This document shows, piece by piece, positions 19,654 to 29,222 of a stretch of 64,000 nt of DNA. A program made the position numbers and the translations under genes. Below the pieces are notes generated by a model that searched no databases, had not been told where the DNA came from, and worked only from the letters and a program-made list of their open reading frames with translations. Numbering within the stretch: position 1 is the stretch's first letter; the number at the start of each line of letters is the position of its first letter. This DNA comes from Mesorhizobium sp. B2-3-12. Its GTDB lineage: Bacteria; Pseudomonadota; Alphaproteobacteria; Rhizobiales; Rhizobiaceae. Where the stretch lies: contig NZ_VFVR01000005.1 in NCBI RefSeq assembly GCF_006442205.1, positions 62,001 through 126,000 of the forward strand. The letters are read 5' to 3'.

Positions 19654-20649
19654 ATGAGCTTCTTGAAGAAATTGATGGTGACCGCGGCCTTCTCGGCCGC
19701 CATGTTCGTGAATGCCGCCTACGCGGAAAACGTCAAGATCGCGCTGGTGGTGAAGTCGCTCGGCAACGGCTTCTTCGATGCCGCCAACAAGGGCGCCGAA
19801 GAGGCCGCCAAGGAACTCGGCGACGTCGATATCATCTACACCGGCCCGACCAAGGCGACCGCCGAGGCACAGATCGAAGTGGTCAATTCGCTGATCGCGC
19901 AGAAGGTCAACGCCATCGCGATTTCCGCCAATGACGCCGACGCGCTGGTGCCGGTGCTGAAGAAGGCCATGGAGCGCGGCATCACCGTCATCTCCTGGGA
20001 TTCGGGCGTCGCCAAGGAAGGCCGCCAGCTTCACCTCAACCCGTCCGACACCGGCCTGATCGGCGAGACCATCATCAAGCTCGCCGCCGACTATCTGCCG
20101 GAAGGCGGCGACGTCGCCATCCTGTCGGCCTCCTCGACCGCGACCAACCAGAATTCGTGGATCGAAGCGGCCAAGAAAGTGCTGCCGGAGAAGTTCCCCA
20201 AGATCAAGCTCGTCGCCACCGTCTATGGCGATGACGATTCGGCCAAGAGCACCGACGAAGCCAAGGGCCTGTTGAAGTCCTATCCGAACCTCAAGGCGAT
20301 CATCGCGCCGACCACCGTCGGCGTCGTCGCCGCCGCCCAGGTCGTCACCGACGAGAACCTGATCGGCAAGGTCAACGTCACCGGCCTGGCGCTGCCGTCC
20401 GAGTTCAAGAAGTTCATCGACAACGGCGCCTCGCAGGCCGTGGCTCTCTGGAACCCGATCGACCTCGGCTATTCCGCCGTCTACCTCGCCCATGACCTGG
20501 CGGTGAAGAAGGAAGAAGCCAAGCCCGGTGCGACGCTGTCGATCGGCCGTGTCGGCAAGGTGACGCTCGACGACACCAACTCGGCCGCGATGGCTCCGCC
20601 CTTCCAGTTCGACAAGAGCAACATCGAAAAGTTCTCCAAGATCTATTGA
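19654..20649 (+). CDS. rhaS: L-rhamnose ABC transporter substrate-binding protein
   Basis: Periplasmic binding protein of 331 residues. Signal peptide 1-24 ends AYA. The mature chain opens ENVKIALVVKSLGNGFFDA, the hallmark of the RbsB-like Peripla_BP_4 family, and has IAISANDADALVPVLKKA and the hinge-region SSTATNQNSW. ATG 19654 follows GGGAGGAT. It is followed by a perfect hairpin and a dispersed repeat before the ATPase gene, which may raise its expression over the other components. Note that in rhizobia the name rhaS denotes this transporter protein, not the E. coli activator. Confidence 0.92.
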   Translation: MSFLKKLMVTAAFSAAMFVNAAYAENVKIALVVKSLGNGFFDAANKGAEEAAKELGDVDIIYTGPTKATAEAQIEVVNSLIAQKVNAIAISANDADALVPVLKKAMERGITVISWDSGVAKEGRQLHLNPSDTGLIGETIIKLAADYLPEGGDVAILSASSTATNQNSWIEAAKKVLPEKFPKIKLVATVYGDDDSAKSTDEAKGLLKSYPNLKAIIAPTTVGVVAAAQVVTDENLIGKVNVTGLALPSEFKKFIDNGASQAVALWNPIDLGYSAVYLAHDLAVKKEEAKPGATLSIGRVGKVTLDDTNSAAMAPPFQFDKSNIEKFSKIY

Positions 20650-20667
20650 TCTCCGAGTTCTCAAGCT

Positions 20668-20697
20668 GACGCGGCGGGACTCACGTCCCGCCGCGTC
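20668..20697 (+). terminator. Strong hairpin after rhaS (partial terminator or mRNA stabiliser)
   Basis: GACGCGGCGGGAC and GTCCCGCCGCGTC form a perfect 13-bp stem with a TCAC loop, 19 bp after the rhaS stop. Only TTC follows rather than a long T run, so it is more likely a processing or stability element that lets rhaS mRNA accumulate than a full terminator. Confidence 0.6.
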
Positions 20698-20708
20698 TTC
20701 AAACGGAC

Positions 20709-20814
20709 CTAGAGCGGTTCAGCGTTTGATGGAATCGCCGACCCGCTCTAACTCTTTGTTTTCACGCAATTCCGGACGGAAAACCGTTACACGCTTTTCC
20801 TGGAATTGCTCTAG
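20709..20814. repeat. Dispersed palindromic repeat, copy 1 (rhaS-rhaT gap)
   Basis: It contains AGAGCGG/CCGCTCT arms and then CGCAATTCC, GGACGGAAAACCG and GGAATTGCTCTAG. The ends GCAATTCC and GGAATTGC are complementary. Related copies lie at 38844-38894 (same orientation) and 55943-56020 (reversed). No ORF is present. Confidence 0.7.
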
Positions 20815-20834
20815 TTTCAGGGCTTGATACGGAT

Positions 20835-22372
<1,538 letters not shown>

Positions 22373-22376
<4 letters not shown>

Positions 22377-23350
22377 AGGCTTTGCTCAAATACCGCGAAA
22401 TCTGGCTGCTGGCCGCCATCGCCGTGCTGATCGGGCTGATCTCGACGCGCTTTCCGGCCTTCGCCGACCCAGGCAATCTGCGGCAGGTGTTCAACGACAC
22501 CTCGATCCTGATGATCCTGGCGCTCGGCCAGATGGTGGTCATCCTGACCCGCTCCATCGACCTGTCGATGGCCTCGAACCTGTGCTTCACCGGCATGGTG
22601 GTGGCGATGCTGAACGCCGCCCATCCGGCGATCCCGATCCCGCTGCTGATCGTGATCGCACTTGCCGTAGGGCTGGTGCTCGGCGCCATCAACGGTCTTC
22701 TGGTGTGGCGGCTCAACATCCCATCGATCGTGGTGACGCTGGGCACGCTCACCATCTATCGCGGCGCCACTTTCGTCATTTCGGGCGGCGCCTGGGTCAA
22801 TGCCGACAAGATGAGCCCGGACTTCATCGGCTTCCAGCGCGCCGCTTTGCTCGGCATTCCCGTGCTGTCCTGGATCGCCATGCTGGTCATCGCGCTGTTC
22901 TTCGTCCTGATGACGCGTACCGCGCTCGGCCGCTCGATCTATGCGATCGGCGTCAATCCGACGGCATCGGTCTATACCGGCATCGATGTCGGCCGCACGA
23001 AATTCATCGTCTTCTGCATCTCCGGCATGATCGGCGGCCTCGCCGGCTATCTCTGGATCTCGCGCTACGTAATCGCCTCGGTCGAGGTCGCCAACGGCTA
23101 TGAGCTCAACATCATCGCCGCCTGCGTCATCGGTGGCATCTCGATCGCCGGCGGCATCGGTTCGGTCGGCGGCGCGGTGCTCGGCGCATTGTTCCTCGGC
23201 ATCATCTCCAACGCGCTGCCTGTCATCAACATCTCGCCCTTCTGGCAGATGGCGATCTCGGGCAGCGCCATCATCCTGGCCGTCGTGCTCAACGCGCGCG
23301 GCGAACGCCAGCAGGGCCGCATCATCCTGAGGAAAGTGGAGGCGGCATGA
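22373..23350 (+). CDS. rhaP: Rhamnose ABC transporter permease
   Basis: Inner-membrane permease of 325 residues with about nine hydrophobic segments of the BPD_transp_2 (RbsC-like) family. Typical stretches are [34 protein letters not shown], and the late [21 protein letters not shown] that contacts the ATPase. Start ATG overlaps the rhaT stop, and its own stop overlaps the rhaQ start (ATGA), so the operon is translationally coupled. It forms the channel together with RhaQ. Confidence 0.93.
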
Positions 23351-24348
23351 CCGACGTTCCCGTCCCGCGCCACATTCCCGACCGGCTCGACAAGCCGCTC
23401 TCCTCGGCGATCTTTTCCTGGGAAGCGCTGCTGGTCGTGGTGGCCATCGCCATCTTCGCCATCAACAGTTTCGCCTCGCCCTATTTCCTCGACCCTTATT
23501 CGCTTTCGGACCTGACCTTCAATTTCACCGAGAAGGGCCTGATCGCCTTTGCCATGGCGTTGCTGATCATTTCGGGCGAGATCGACCTGTCGGTGGCCGC
23601 AATCATCGCACTCGCCTCGACCATGATGGGCATGGCGGTGCAGGCCGGCGCTGGCACGCCGGTGCTTGTCTTGATCGGCATCGGCGTCGGCCTCGGCTGC
23701 GGCGCCTTCAACGGGCTCCTCGTGACGCGCCTCGGCCTGCCGTCCATCGTCGTCACCATCGGCACGATGAGCCTGTTTCGTGGCATCGCCTTCATCATCC
23801 TCGGCGATCAGGCCTACAAGGGCTATCCAGAAAGCTTCGCCTTCTTCGGCCAGGGTTATGTCTGGTGGGTGGTGTCGTTCGAACTGGTGCTCTTTCTCAT
23901 CGCGGCCGTCGTCTACTGGTTTGTGCTGCACCGCACGAGTTTCGGCCGCCGTGTCTTCGCCATCGGCAACAATCCGATCGCGGCGCAGTTTTCCGGCGTG
24001 CGCGTCGGCCGCACAAAATTCATCCTGTTTTGCCTGACCGGGCTGATGTCGGGCATCGCCTCGGTGCTGATCACCTCGCGGCTCGGCTCGACGCGGCCGT
24101 CGATCGCGCAGGGCTACGAGCTCGAGGTGATCACCATGGTGGTGCTTGGCGGCGTCTCGATCCTTGGCGGCGCCGGCAGCATTGTCGGCGTGGTGCTTGC
24201 CGCCCTGATCATGGGGCTGGTGACATTTGGTCTGGGCCTGCTCAACGTGCCCGGCATCGTCATGTCGATCTTCATCGGCCTGCTCCTGATCATCGTCATC
24301 GCCCTGCCGATCGTCTGGCGGCGGCTGCGCGGGAGACGCCTGGCCTGA
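23347..24348 (+). CDS. rhaQ: Rhamnose ABC transporter permease
   Basis: Second permease, 333 residues, paralogous to RhaP. It has [32 protein letters not shown] and [18 protein letters not shown] in the expected order. About eight to ten helices are predicted. Overlaps at both ends (four bases with rhaP, one with rhaU) show a compact operon. RhaP and RhaQ probably form a heterodimeric pore. Confidence 0.93.
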
Positions 24349-24665
24349 TGTCCGAGAAATACGCATTCAAGATGACGCTCAAACCCGACATGAAGGCCGA
24401 GTACAAAAAGCGTCATGACGAAATCTGGCCGTCGCTGGTCGCGCTGCTGAAACAGGCCGGCGTTTCCGACTATTCGATCCATCTCGACGAAGACACCAAC
24501 ATCCTGTTCGGCGTGCTGTGGCGGCGCGACGATCACGGCATGGCCGATCTGCCCAGCCATCCGGTGATGCAGCGCTGGTGGGCCCACATGGCCGATGTCA
24601 TGGAGACGAAGGCGGACAACGAGCCAGTGGCTGTGCCGTTGGAAACCGTGTTCCATATGGAATGA
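24348..24665 (+). CDS. rhaU: L-rhamnose mutarotase
   Basis: Small cytoplasmic dimeric alpha/beta-barrel protein of 105 residues that interconverts alpha and beta anomers of L-rhamnose (RhaM/YiiL in enterics, 104 residues). Conserved features are [20 protein letters not shown] at the N-terminus, the internal [14 protein letters not shown] strand, and the paired tryptophans in [13 protein letters not shown]. Start ATG overlaps the rhaQ stop by one base, and the end overlaps rhaK by four. Confidence 0.93.
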
Positions 24666-26038
24666 GCACGCTCCGCCACATCGCCGTTATCGATATCGGC
24701 AAGACCAACGCCAAGGTGGCGCTGGTCGATCTCGCCACATTGAGCGAGGTGGCGCTGCGCCGCATGCCGAACGCGCCGGTGCGGCAGGCGCCCTACCCGC
24801 ATCACGATGTCGAAGCGCTGTGGGCGTTCATCCTCGACAGTCTCGCCGACCTCAACCGCGACCAGCGCATCGACGCGATTTCCATTACCACCCATGGCGC
24901 GACCGGCGTGCTGGTCGACGCCACGGGCGAGCTGGTGCTGCCTGTGCTCGACTATGAATTCGACGGACCCGACGGGCTCGCGGCGGACTATGACGCGATC
25001 CGCCCGCCTTTCGCCGAGACCGGCACCCCGCGCCTGCCGCTCGGCCTCAATCTCGGCGCGCAATTCTTCTGGCAGCAGCAAAGCTTCCCGACGCAGTTCG
25101 CGAAGGTCGCCGCGATGCTGATGTACCCACAATACTGGGCGCTGCGCCTGACCGGCGTCGCCGCCAATGAGGTGACGTCGCTCGGCTGCCACACCGATCT
25201 GTGGAACCCTTGGACAGCAGATCTTTCGGCGCTGGTCGACCGGCTGGGCTGGCGCGGCCTGATGGCGCCCGTGCGACCTGCCAGGGACCGTCTTGGCTCG
25301 GTCCTGCCCGTGCTTGCGCAGCGCACCGGGCTCGATCCTCTAACGCCCGTCTTTTGCGGCCTGCACGATTCCAACGCCTCCCTGCTGCCGCATCTCCTGG
25401 CCGACAAACCGCCTTTCTCGGTCGTCTCGACCGGCACCTGGGTGGTGTCGATGGCGGTCGGCGGCAGGACGGTGGCGCTCGACCCTGCAAGGGATACGCT
25501 GGTCAACGTCAATGCGCTCGGCGACCCCGTGCCCTCGGCGCGTTTCATGGGCGGCCGGGAATTCTCGCTGCTGACCGAAGGCGCGGCGCAGGACTGGACC
25601 GACAACGACGTTGTCGCCGTGCTGGCGCGCAGGACCTTGCTTTTGCCTTCGACCCAGCAAGGCTCGGGGCCGTTTCCGCATCATGCGGCCGCATGGCGCA
25701 AGGGCGAGGCCATCCCTCCCGGCCAGCGCTTTGCCGCCATCTCCTTCTACCTGGCGCTGATGACAGCGACGTGCCTCGACCTCATCGGCGGCGATGGCCC
25801 GACCACCGTCGAGGGACCTTTTGCGCGCAACCAATTGTTCACACGGATGCTCGCCGCGAGCACTGGCCGTGCGGTCATCGCATCGCAAGCCGCGACCGGC
25901 ACCAGCATCGGGGCCGCTCTGCTGGCATCGGATCAGGGAGCCGCGCATGGCAAGGGCCAGACACAAGAGCCCCCGGTCGATCCGGCCTGGGCGGAGTATG
26001 CGCGCGCGTGGCGGACGGCGGTCGAGGCAGTTGGGTAA
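24662..26038 (+). CDS. rhaK: FGGY-family sugar kinase (rhamnose kinase)
   Basis: Kinase of 458 residues. The phosphate-binding loop [12 protein letters not shown] near the N-terminus and the second ATP-site motif [15 protein letters not shown] mark the FGGY family. [16 protein letters not shown] is the linker region typical of rhamnulokinase relatives. It starts within the rhaU stop (ATGA). Known background: in Rhizobium leguminosarum RhaK is needed both for phosphorylation and for activity of the rhamnose ABC transporter. The stop codon abuts the stop of the convergent racemase gene with no gap. Confidence 0.9.
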
Positions 26039-27865
26039 TCAGAGGATCCGCTTGCCGAAGGCCGACATGACGAAGTTGATGGTGTCGCTGCCGATCCTGG
26101 GTTCAAGATCGGTGGCCAGGCCGGAGACATCCATCGACAGCAGCCCGCCGGACAGCGCGATCGCCTCCATTGCCTGATGCGTTTCGCGCACGGTGAGGCC
26201 GCCGGAACCAGCCGCCCAGCCGGCGAATTCGGTCGCCGTGGGCGAATAGCTGACATGAAAACCTTGTGTGCCGGAGGTGGCGATGCGGATCGCCTCGTGC
26301 ATCAGGTCGCGCATGCCCATGGCGTCGATATCGGTCATGGTGAAGGCCGAGACGCGCGAATCCTTCAGCACCCGCGCTTCCGCCGGATCGGCATGGCGCA
26401 GCCCGACGATGACGACGTTTTCCGGCGACAGCCGCGGCTGCAGCGCGCCCGCCTTGTGGTCGAGCCCAAGCGTACGCGCCAGCACGGACGCCTCCGGCAG
26501 ATCGATGCCTTCCTCTTCTTCCGGCATGAGGGCGGCGATGGAATCGACCCAGATCAGGCCGAAGGAGTGTGTCGCGCGCGCGGTCGTCGTCAGCGCCTTG
26601 TGAGCGATGCGCCGGTCAGCGCCAGCGGTCAGCCGGATCAGGCCCGAGGGCGGCCGGTCGATATCGGCCAGTTCGACGACATCGAAATTCATCGCTTCCA
26701 GCCGAGCACCGGTGCCTTCCCTGGCCAGGATGCCGGCGGCCCCAGGCTCGGCCGTGATCTGCACCATCTTGCGGCCGGAAAAGTCGGCGACATCGTGCAT
26801 CGGGGCCTTTTCGACATATTCCGAGGTCATCGCCAGCAGCATGGCGCCATAGCTCATGCGGAAGGCGACGCGGTCGCCGACGGCCGGCGGCGGATCGGCG
26901 TCCTGCACATCGAGCAGCAGATGGTCGCTGGAGGCGCCGAGCACCCGTATCCCCTTTGCGATCGGCGTCAGCCCTTCGACCAGCACGTCCTCGCGGCCGA
27001 TATTGGCGATGGCGCGCAGCCTGTCGCCTTCGTCTGGAAAGACCGGCTGGTTGCCGAACGCATCGTAGCCCGACATGCCGATCGGCCGTGACGGCTTTAG
27101 CTTGACCTCGATGACGTCACTGGTCAGCCGACAGGCATCGGGTTCGAGTTCGGCCCATGGCACATCGCGAAAAGTCTCGACGCCGCCCTGCAGGATCGCC
27201 TCGCCGACCCTGAGATTATTGATGCCGGCCGGCAATTTGCCTTCGAGCAACAGCGGCAGCGACGACGAGGCGCCGCCGGAGATGAAGTCCAGGCTTTTTC
27301 CTGACAGACGCTCGGTCTTGTAGGCATGGGCGACGAGCTGGCCGAGATTTTCCTGGGTCGGCATGATGGCGCCGAAGCAGCCGAGATTGGTGCCGATGCC
27401 GGCGATGCGCACGCCCTTCATGTCCAGAATCTGCTCGACCGTGGGGATGAGGTCGTTCGGCCAGATGCCTTCTCTGAGATCGCCGAGATCGATCATCAGC
27501 ATGATGTCGTGGACACGGCCCATGCGCTCGGCGATGCGCGAGATCTCGCGGATGATGGTCAGTTCCGACTGCAGGCTGACGTCGACGGTGCGCACCACCT
27601 CCTCGACGCGCGCCATCGGCGGACTGCGCAACAGCATGATCGGCGCCGATATGCCGCTGGCGCGCAGCCGGCGGATATTTTCGAAGCGGGATTCGGCAAT
27701 GCCGGCCACCCCACCGCGCAGCATGGCGCGCGCCACTTGCGGCATGCCGCATGTGCCCTTGGTAACGCCGAACACCTTGATGCCAGAAAGCGCGCAGCGG
27801 TCGACGATGGTGCGGGCGTTGCGCTCGATGCGGCCAAGGTCGATGGCGACTTGCGGTCCCGACAT
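26039..27865 (-). CDS. PLP racemase fused to a metal-less arginase-like domain
   Basis: A 608-residue fusion. Residues 1 to about 350 are an alanine/ornithine-racemase-type PLP barrel, with the Schiff-base lysine as Lys36 in FGVTKGTCG and the phosphate region INNLRVGEAIL. Residues about 366-600 follow the arginase fold in order (VVIVGLRHADPAEARVL, SAFTMTDIDAMGM, GGLTVRETHQAMEA), but the manganese sites are lost. The GGDHS region reads AGADRR (414-419), DAHxD reads VDSIAA (440-445), and DxD reads SYSPT (539-543). Only one of six usual ligands seems to remain, so hydrolysis of arginine is unlikely. It is encoded one base after dadA, suggesting D-amino-acid (perhaps D-ornithine) metabolism. The arginase-like part may be structural or sensory. 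Confidence 0.82.
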   Translation of the reverse strand: MSGPQVAIDLGRIERNARTIVDRCALSGIKVFGVTKGTCGMPQVARAMLRGGVAGIAESRFENIRRLRASGISAPIMLLRSPPMARVEEVVRTVDVSLQSELTIIREISRIAERMGRVHDIMLMIDLGDLREGIWPNDLIPTVEQILDMKGVRIAGIGTNLGCFGAIMPTQENLGQLVAHAYKTERLSGKSLDFISGGASSSLPLLLEGKLPAGINNLRVGEAILQGGVETFRDVPWAELEPDACRLTSDVIEVKLKPSRPIGMSGYDAFGNQPVFPDEGDRLRAIANIGREDVLVEGLTPIAKGIRVLGASSDHLLLDVQDADPPPAVGDRVAFRMSYGAMLLAMTSEYVEKAPMHDVADFSGRKMVQITAEPGAAGILAREGTGARLEAMNFDVVELADIDRPPSGLIRLTAGADRRIAHKALTTTARATHSFGLIWVDSIAALMPEEEEGIDLPEASVLARTLGLDHKAGALQPRLSPENVVIVGLRHADPAEARVLKDSRVSAFTMTDIDAMGMRDLMHEAIRIATSGTQGFHVSYSPTATEFAGWAAGSGGLTVRETHQAMEAIALSGGLLSMDVSGLATDLEPRIGSDTINFVMSAFGKRIL

Positions 27866-27866
27866 T

Positions 27867-29117
27867 TTATCCCCCGTAGACCAGTCCCTGGGGATCGATC
27901 TCCGGCTTGCGCCCGGCAACTAGGTCGGCGAGGAATTTGCCCGAGCCGCAGGCCATGGTCCAGCCGACATGGCCGTGGCCGGTGTCGAGATAGAGGTTGC
28001 GGTATTTCGCCTGGCCGATGACCGGCACCGAGTTCGGCATCATCGGCCGCAAACCCGCCCACAGCTCGGCTTTCTTCTCGTCGAAAGCGCCAGGAAACAG
28101 ATCCTTGCCGGTCCTGAACATGGTGGCGAAGTCGCTGGGCTTGTGGGTGCGGTCGAAGCCGGTGAATTCGGCGGTCGAAGCCAACCGCAATCGATTGCCA
28201 AGGCGCGAATAGGCCATCAGCTGGTCCTCGTCGGCGCCGCCCATGGTCGGGCCCTTGCTCTCGTCCTCCAGCGGAATCGTCGCCGTGTAACCTTTCACCG
28301 GATAGACCGGCAGGTCGATGCCATAGCGGCGGCCGAGCAGACCGCTCTCCGGCCCCATCGAGATCACCACTGCATCGCCGGTGACCGGCCCGGCCGAGGT
28401 CATCACGGCACGCACCCGGTCGCCTTCGATGTCGAGGCCTTCGACCGTGGTGCCGTAGCGAAACCTCACGCCGAGCTTTTCGGCGGCATAGGCGGCCAGA
28501 TTTTCCACGAACTGCCGGGAATCGCCGGTCTGGTCGATCGGCGAATAGACGCCGCCGGCGATCTTTTCCTTGACACCGGCAAGACCCGGTTCAAGCTCGA
28601 CCAGCCGATCGCGGCCGACGATCTCGATCGGCAGGCCATGCTCGGCCAGATAGCGATAATTGTCGGTGCCGGTATCGAGGCTGTGCTGCGAGCGGAAGAA
28701 ATACAGGATTCCCTTCTTGCGCTCGTCGTAATGGATGCCAGTCTCGGCGGAGATGGCGTTGATGCAGTCGCGCGAATAGAGCGCCAGCCGCAGCTTGACC
28801 TGGCTGTTGGCGCGCAGGCGGGCCACCGTGCACTGGCGCAGGAAGCGCAGGCTCCAGGCGAGGAAATAGGGATCGAAGCGCAGCCTGACCTTGATGCCGA
28901 GATCATGATTGTAGAGCCCGCGCAGGAACGTCTTAAGTGCCGCGGGCGAGGCCCAGGCGGTGGCATCCCCGGGAGACACCAGGCCGGCATTCGACTGGCT
29001 GGTGCCCCGCGCCGGCGCCGGATGGCGCTCGATCACGGTGACCTCGTGACCGTCCGCGGCCAGATAATAGGCGGCTGCCGTGCCGACGACGCCGGCTCCA
29101 AGCACCGTTATCTTCAT
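27867..29117 (-). CDS. dadA: FAD-dependent D-amino-acid dehydrogenase (DadA-like)
   Basis: Flavoprotein of 416 residues of the DAO family. It begins MKITVLGAGVVGTAAAYYLA, the FAD dinucleotide fold, and continues with SNAGLVSPGDATAWASP. The C-terminus has YLDTGHGHVGWTMACGSGKFLADL, which closes the FAD site. These are DadA features. It should oxidatively deaminate D-amino acids and pass electrons to the respiratory chain. ATG 29117 follows a purine-rich GGGGGAT. The next gene, the racemase fusion, starts one base after its stop, so the two are probably co-translated and act on the same substrate. Confidence 0.9.
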   Translation of the reverse strand: MKITVLGAGVVGTAAAYYLAADGHEVTVIERHPAPARGTSQSNAGLVSPGDATAWASPAALKTFLRGLYNHDLGIKVRLRFDPYFLAWSLRFLRQCTVARLRANSQVKLRLALYSRDCINAISAETGIHYDERKKGILYFFRSQHSLDTGTDNYRYLAEHGLPIEIVGRDRLVELEPGLAGVKEKIAGGVYSPIDQTGDSRQFVENLAAYAAEKLGVRFRYGTTVEGLDIEGDRVRAVMTSAGPVTGDAVVISMGPESGLLGRRYGIDLPVYPVKGYTATIPLEDESKGPTMGGADEDQLMAYSRLGNRLRLASTAEFTGFDRTHKPSDFATMFRTGKDLFPGAFDEKKAELWAGLRPMMPNSVPVIGQAKYRNLYLDTGHGHVGWTMACGSGKFLADLVAGRKPEIDPQGLVYGG

Positions 29118-29222
29118 GCGATCCCCCAAAGCTCCTCGCGGCACGGCGCCTCGGCACCGTATCGCGAATGCTTCCATAGCGCGTCGCCGCGCGGCTTGCG
29201 AGCCCTTGGGGAAAGCGCGGGC

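Follow-up and report, generated by a model that had tools for sequence, protein, structure and literature searches.

The locus examined here raises the question of why a PLP racemase should carry, in the same polypeptide chain, an arginase-like domain that has lost nearly all of its metal ligands. The gene lies in a 64,000-nucleotide stretch of DNA from Mesorhizobium sp. B2-3-12, hereafter called the window. Its main features, and that of the gene preceding it, are as follows.

26039..27865, minus strand: fusion gene, racemase plus pseudo-arginase, 608 residues, ATG at 27865 and stop TGA at 26039-26041
26807..27865, minus strand: PLP racemase domain of Orr type, residues 1-353 (Pfam PF01168; NF040742, 388.1 bits over residues 4-353, below the cut-off of 480)
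27758-27760, minus strand: codon of the PLP lysine K36, present in 84/84 fusions
26042..26770, minus strand: degenerate arginase domain, residues 366-608 (Pfam, PDB sequence match, structure comparison)
27867..29177, minus strand: DadA-type D-amino-acid dehydrogenase, one base upstream of the fusion; likely start 29117, 416 residues

An earlier note, made from the sequence alone, had described one 608-residue chain of a PLP racemase and an arginase-like C-terminal domain, with Lys36 intact and a DadA-type gene one base upstream. This description was confirmed by Pfam, by a PDB sequence match and by an AlphaFold2 model, by the invariance of K36, and by the score of the upstream gene against PRK00711 (461.9 bits versus 383). 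Ala_racemase_N matched residues 8-224 (E 1.4e-26, 94 bits) and Arginase (PF00491) matched residues 408-589 (E 7.1e-16, 58.9 bits versus a cut-off of 22), and the top match among PDB sequences was the B. caldovelox arginase 1cev (E 5.8e-18). In NCBIfam the racemase half matched Orr best without reaching the curated score, and the arginase half likewise fell short of that of RocF TIGR01229 (71 bits versus 227.6). The model, built with 27 aligned sequences, had a mean pLDDT of 85.5 and a pTM of 0.65. Its residues 366-608 aligned to the T. thermophilus arginase 2ef5 with Z 28.1 and rmsd 2.5 over 233 residues at 29% identity, and to B. caldovelox 2cev with Z 26.9, and residues from about 1 to 360 aligned to alanine-racemase chains with Z about 27-30. 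Profile search and structure prediction, the checks proposed in the note, thus both identified the C-terminal part as arginase-like, and in the model the arginase fold is complete along its length, with deletions. Since each of the 50 Foldseek matches listed for the model was a PLP chain of fold III, either a racemase or of aldolase/dehydratase type, the arginase half was judged from the separate structure comparison. A chance or artefactual reading frame was ruled out by the Pfam matches, the fold and the 80 homologous loci (best 80 of 141). In the racemase half, residue 267 (27065-27067), which we take to be the position of the alanine racemase catalytic tyrosine, varies among Y, I, V, F, P, M and L in the fusions, and the adjacent downstream DAFG is invariant in 84/84; the second catalytic base of the fused racemase family may be different from that of alanine racemase. 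The Shinella zoogloeoides fusion protein is named 'alanine racemase' in RefSeq.

Homologues were collected by scanning an 84,980-species collection, from which the best 80 of 141 loci were used. These are mostly from Mesorhizobium, with others from Aminobacter, Pseudaminobacter, Labrys, Shinella, Aestuariivirga and Taklimakanibacter, and they include Thiofilum, three spirochaete MAGs, Pseudogulbenkiania and a Lentisphaeria MAG. The aligned set holds 84 fusions, 82 of them distinct (L192/L041 and L211/L086 are identical pairs), and six are shorter than 590 residues, one of which (L221) is cut at its start; L182 and L213, with broken frames, and L203 and L219, at contig ends, were left out. The frame is apparently broken in three Mesorhizobium genomes, in the fusion of L213 and L182 and in the DadA gene of L146, which appears to reflect decay or sequencing error. 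One genome carries, about 13 kb away from its full copy, a 77-residue piece of the fusion C-terminal end with 70% identity (G226:C57:70177-70407).

The C-terminal half matched 32/297 genomes of the family sample, 16 of which were counted as fused, one (L043) being a 123-residue fragment that entered the co-occurrence test below on the fused side; the other matches were about 30% identical and lay mostly in frames of 310-400 residues. Matches were found in 18/347 genomes of the order sample, 9 of them full-length fusions, and in 13/337 and 11/349 genomes at class and phylum level, where those outside the source family end at residue 349-378 and are racemases alone. Several stand-alone racemase relatives adjoin a DUF1611/DgcN-like gene (L089:7844-9034; 158 bits to DgcN with a cut-off of 480, one scanned), which suggests that the single-domain form belongs to a different D-amino-acid pathway. 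In the source genus the fusion occurs in 3/9 genomes listed and is therefore accessory there. Matches were found in 4/106 genomes of the Lentisphaeria phylum, with a fusion in the query genome only, in 12/149 of the spirochaete phylum, full-length in the query genome only, and in 12/61 of the Pseudogulbenkiania family, three of them full-length. A second clade (L044-L047 and L087) is 37-40% identical, with an arginase half even more eroded, and the phage collection gave two weak matches to the C-terminal half. The fusion family is old.

The state of the metal site was read from an alignment with 12 RocF arginases in 1CEV (B. caldovelox) numbering (12 of 13, L266 being left out). The positions concerned are these.

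26612..26614, minus strand: R418, replacing the metal ligand H99 (GGDH), by alignment
26531..26545, minus strand: D441 (D122 kept), S442, I443 (H124 lost), A444, A445 (D126 lost), by alignment
26237..26245, minus strand: S541-T543, replacing the ligands D226 and D228 (S541 and T543), by alignment

The fusion protein of the window thus keeps one of six ligands, D122, and the ligand table rules out a misread intact arginase. The note's estimate that about five of six ligands are gone proved right; it had also read the DAHxD motif as replaced by VDSIAA, and the motif is indeed lost, but the D122 ligand position is still present as D441. All six ligands are found in 12/12 reference arginases, whereas the 84 fusions (82 distinct) keep none in one case, one in 64, two in 16 and three in three (L217, L222 and one other), so that the losses are common to every fusion aligned and none of the 84 has a complete arginase site. 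The substrate site fared no better: among 35 non-redundant fusions (below 90% identity), every one of the 11 columns with a catalytic or substrate role varies, and the N and H of SGNxHG together with E271 survive in 1/84 fusions, L223 only. The arginase half is probably catalytically dead, as the alignment indicates, in agreement with the pseudoenzyme reading of the note. Because the substrate residues were lost along with the metal ligands, the old pocket is implausible as a place for arginine, and the note's proposal of an arginine or ornithine sensor there was not borne out; if any sensor site exists, the subunit interface described below would be a better candidate. A metal or arginine bound at a relocated site inside the old pocket could be imagined from the retention of D441 in 33/35 non-redundant fusions, but the other ligands and the substrate-loop residues are not conserved, and we consider this very improbable.

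The residual ligands form a mosaic. L223 (Lentisphaeria) keeps H99, GGDHS and the GNLHG loop and has lost the other five ligands; L222 (Pseudogulbenkiania) keeps D122, D226 and D228; L217 (spirochaete) keeps D122, H124 and D228; L201 and L211 keep H99 and D122; and L195 keeps D122 and H124. In the arginase tree, the C-terminal domains of the fusions group in a single clade (support 92/91, not starred). This grouping, together with the mosaic retention, suggests that a once-intact domain decayed more than once, and ligand decay was probably repeated among lineages. In the racemase tree the fused rows formed one clade in 6% of bootstrap trees, and a single clade was not rejected (p-AU 0.4). Median dN/dS was 0.107 for residues 366-608 and 0.092 for residues 1-353 (54 equal-length sequences, the pairs not being independent), showing that the arginase half is under purifying selection and ruling out a pseudogene relic. 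The related idea that this half is a functionless appendage in decay draws on the erosion of the catalytic residues and on the large arginase-domain deletions in L044-L047. However, the dN/dS lies near that of the racemase half, an arginase fold is predicted, and 12/207 arginase-half columns are invariant across phyla, making the idea, already disfavoured, very unlikely.

What has been retained instead are residues of the arginase subunit interface. In B. caldovelox numbering they are D199, R249, E250 and E256, which are presumed to correspond to rat D204, R255, E256 and E262.

26324..26326, minus strand: D514 at the interface, aligned with arginase D199 (presumably D204 in rat), present in 84/84 fusions
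26183..26188, minus strand: R560-E561, aligned with arginase R249-E250 (presumably R255-E256 in rat), present in 84/84 fusions
26165..26167, minus strand: E567 at the interface, aligned with arginase E256 (presumably E262 in rat), present in 84/84 fusions

As a control, 50 columns conserved in at least 11/12 arginases were compared with the 35 fusions below 90% identity. Nine of the 50 do not vary in these fusions, and the nine include all four interface residues (p 5.5e-4, to be taken as a guide, since the invariant columns had been seen before the four were picked out from the literature). Against the reading, the same positions are also well conserved among arginases in general, D199, R249 and E256 in 11/12 and E250 in 12/12. 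Alanine-racemase-fold enzymes are dimers, the arginase of B. caldovelox forms a dimer of trimers, and a study by Lobos et al., going by its title, reportedly concerns Glu256 and Asp204 of arginase. In rat arginase, an excerpt of PMC7925462 states, R308 bridges E262 and D204 and the R308A variant is monomeric; the B. caldovelox enzyme (3CEV) ends at M299, and free L-Arg occupies that interface place (same excerpt). The fusions mostly end where the bacillary arginase stops, without the mammalian tail. A change at E278 disrupts the B. caldovelox hexamer according to an excerpt of PMC11271267, and the fusions have a gap at this position in 33/35 and A in 2/35, which favours a trimer over a full hexamer. 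The oligomeric state of bacterial arginases varies, some being monomers or dimers (excerpt of PMC6988801).

An assembly role of the dead domain is the simplest reading of these invariant residues, and the oligomerisation domain that the note had offered as its second option gains support from them. That the interface site may also sense arginine is a further, weaker step. Taking both steps together, we propose tentatively, and regard as rather improbable, that the dead arginase is an arginine-responsive trimerisation module for the racemase, acting via the retained second arginine site at the interface. If this were true, joining a naturally dimeric racemase to a trimer-former would give a closed symmetric assembly (a D3 hexamer or larger cage), and the assembly or activity of the racemase would respond to the arginine level.

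The neighbourhood bears on the substrate. At the source locus only the DadA gene accompanies the fusion, without a ureohydrolase alongside; other contigs of the source genome carry a gene of the AruI family, with 47% identity to the operon form, and one of agmatinase type, with 44%. On the other side, an FGGY sugar-kinase gene (plus strand, last base of the stop codon at 26038) and the fusion (minus strand, stop 26039-26041) stand tail to tail with zero bases between them; the kinase belongs to a plus-strand cluster at 19654-26038 (binding protein, ABC ATPase, two permeases, 105-residue protein, FGGY kinase) that presumably corresponds to a rhizobial rhamnose operon. Longer operons were found in Labrys (L198-L200), Shinella (L204/L206) and Shinella zoogloeoides (gene names as in RefSeq), where a ureohydrolase, a 5-guanidino-2-oxopentanoate decarboxylase (AruI family, 735 bits versus 500) and an aldehyde dehydrogenase are followed by a biotin-carboxylase-like protein, a C45 hydrolase, DadA, the fusion and RidA. 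The gammaproteobacterium Thiofilum (L220) has a permease, ureohydrolase, AruI, aldehyde dehydrogenase, DadA, the fusion and RidA. L201, L209 and L211 run from AruI to the fusion without ureohydrolase and RidA within the stretch, and Shinella L207 has DadA, the fusion and RidA only, without the upstream genes.

Across the 80 loci (best 80 of 141), DadA was found in 72, AruI in 13 and a ureohydrolase in 11 within the mapped stretch. Four of the eight loci without DadA (L175, L218, L221 and L223) start less than 400 bases from the fusion gene and therefore cannot show it. In 53/80 the mapped neighbours are only DadA and GalE (and HemA), leaving these loci without the arginine pathway in cis, and 2/80 have GalE without DadA. 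GalE is followed directly by the fusion, with no DadA found, in L193 and L194 (M. camelthorni and M. alhagi) and in L037. The loci of Pseudogulbenkiania L222 and Lentisphaeria L223 gave no match to the operon proteins. In the family sample the AruI family occurs in 16/16 genomes counted as fused versus 105/281 others (p 3e-7, kinship ignored), or by genus in 10/10 versus 36/99; as genera share history and one copy is the operon's own in two genomes, this co-occurrence is supportive only.

The operon enzymes would act along a route of Pseudomonas type, in which L-arginine is converted to D-arginine, 2-ketoarginine, 4-guanidinobutanal, 4-guanidinobutyrate and finally GABA plus urea. Gene content makes the Labrys, some Shinella and Thiofilum operons appear to be pointing to L-arginine breakdown via D-arginine rather than to ornithine. 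Rid2 and Rid3 act in vitro on the imine from the D-arginine dehydrogenase DauA, whereas RidA and Rid1 proteins are inactive on iminoarginine (excerpt of PMC5619798). In the spirochaete L217 the fusion follows the D-ornithine 4,5-aminomutase OraE (1216.5 bits versus 800) and a GlmL-like partner (653.6 versus 600), and an ornithine route via D-ornithine aminomutase is described for Clostridioides in an excerpt of PMC8803604; in this lineage the OraE neighbour argues for ornithine as the candidate substrate. More generally, the protein could be an ornithine racemase, with the dead half the remnant of a bifunctional enzyme that turned arginine into ornithine and then D-ornithine, and with DadA leading to a 5-amino keto acid or pyrroline and ultimately proline. 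Orr as the top NCBIfam match, the OraE and GlmL-like neighbours of L217, and a mosaic of ligands implying a once-active arginase domain all fit, but the 2-ketoarginine decarboxylase and ureohydrolase of the Labrys, some Shinella and Thiofilum operons would not be needed for ornithine, and for the family as a whole we hold this account to be somewhat improbable. The note's suggestion that the arginase once fed ornithine to the racemase accordingly suits the deeper lineages, with their mosaic retention and the OraE locus, but not the Labrys, Shinella and Thiofilum operons.

The same operons invite the thought that the dead domain pairs with the intact ureohydrolase in a heteromer, as MetCb does with MetCa in the metformin hydrolase MetCaCb (excerpt of PMC11271267). 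A ureohydrolase is nearby in 8/21 mapped loci and 11/80 loci (best 80 of 141), directly adjacent in L087 and L044, and the neighbouring ureohydrolases inspected retain the GGDH, DAHxD or DAHRD, and DxD motifs. This partnership is nevertheless unlikely, given that the operon ureohydrolase is agmatinase-type (TIGR01230, 4/4 scanned) and far in the tree from the RocF-type fused domain, and that none stands beside the fusion at the source locus.

The explanation that we favour, and hold to be about as probable as its negation, is an arginine/ornithine racemase whose dead arginase half serves as a module for oligomerisation and may contain a second arginine site. L-Arginine would be the most likely substrate of this PLP enzyme of the ornithine-racemase family in alphaproteobacteria, ornithine possibly being another, because the Labrys, some Shinella and Thiofilum operons contain a 2-ketoarginine decarboxylase and a ureohydrolase. 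The DadA-type dehydrogenase encoded next to the fusion would take over the D-amino acid, and its product 2-ketoarginine would go on to the decarboxylase, aldehyde dehydrogenase and ureohydrolase. The dead domain would have been kept because it oligomerises, tying racemase dimers into a larger assembly, and the place for free arginine known from the B. caldovelox arginase may survive as a regulatory site. The observations underlying this explanation are the fold, the ligand loss and its commonness among the fusions, the invariant interface residues, the purifying selection and the operon context; from them we infer the racemase substrate, the oligomeric state and the arginine binding at the interface.

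The fusion family amounts to a natural experiment in what an arginase still needs after losing catalysis: metal and substrate residues disappeared across phyla while four subunit-interface residues stayed. For a gene annotated in RefSeq as 'alanine racemase', it also offers arginine, broken down by way of D-arginine, as a substrate that can be tested directly. In the open-licence literature, none of the matches listed concerned a racemase-arginase fusion by title or abstract start, no biochemistry of the fusion family was found, and no paper was found on 2-ketoarginine together with an arginine racemase, or combining three of four terms of the D-arginine route. Among known systems, TbARG, an arginase-like protein of Trypanosoma brucei, reportedly shares with the dead half an arginase fold without the binuclear manganese site; it is stand-alone and eukaryotic. 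Orr (NF040742) and RocF (TIGR01229) are matched by the two halves, both below the curated cut-offs, and differ from them in that the Mesorhizobium halves are fused and the arginase site is lost. MetCb, as presented in the excerpt of PMC11271267, is likewise a ureohydrolase-family protein that lost its ligands and was kept as a binding partner, but it is a separate chain partnering an active paralogue, whereas the Mesorhizobium dead domain is fused to a PLP enzyme. The nearest published case found is the ancestral-form ornithine decarboxylase of Fusobacterium nucleatum, which carries a fused C-terminal arginase/agmatinase homologue; this was judged unlikely to be active, two metal-binding aspartates being replaced by Ser and Asn, and the PLP domain alone is about as active as the whole protein (excerpt of PMC8503589). 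Both are PLP enzymes of basic amino acids with a C-terminal arginase domain lacking an intact metal site, but the F. nucleatum enzyme is an AAT-fold decarboxylase reportedly fused only in Fusobacteriaceae, according to that excerpt, whereas the Mesorhizobium type has an alanine-racemase fold and occurs in several phyla. The unrelated PLP partners suggest separate fusion events, making the present family a second, apparently separate, case of this architecture; if the trimerisation proposal were true, the Fusobacterium fusion may have reached the same solution separately. Together with MetCb, the F. nucleatum decarboxylase indicates that a dead ureohydrolase can occur either attached to an active enzyme or alongside one.
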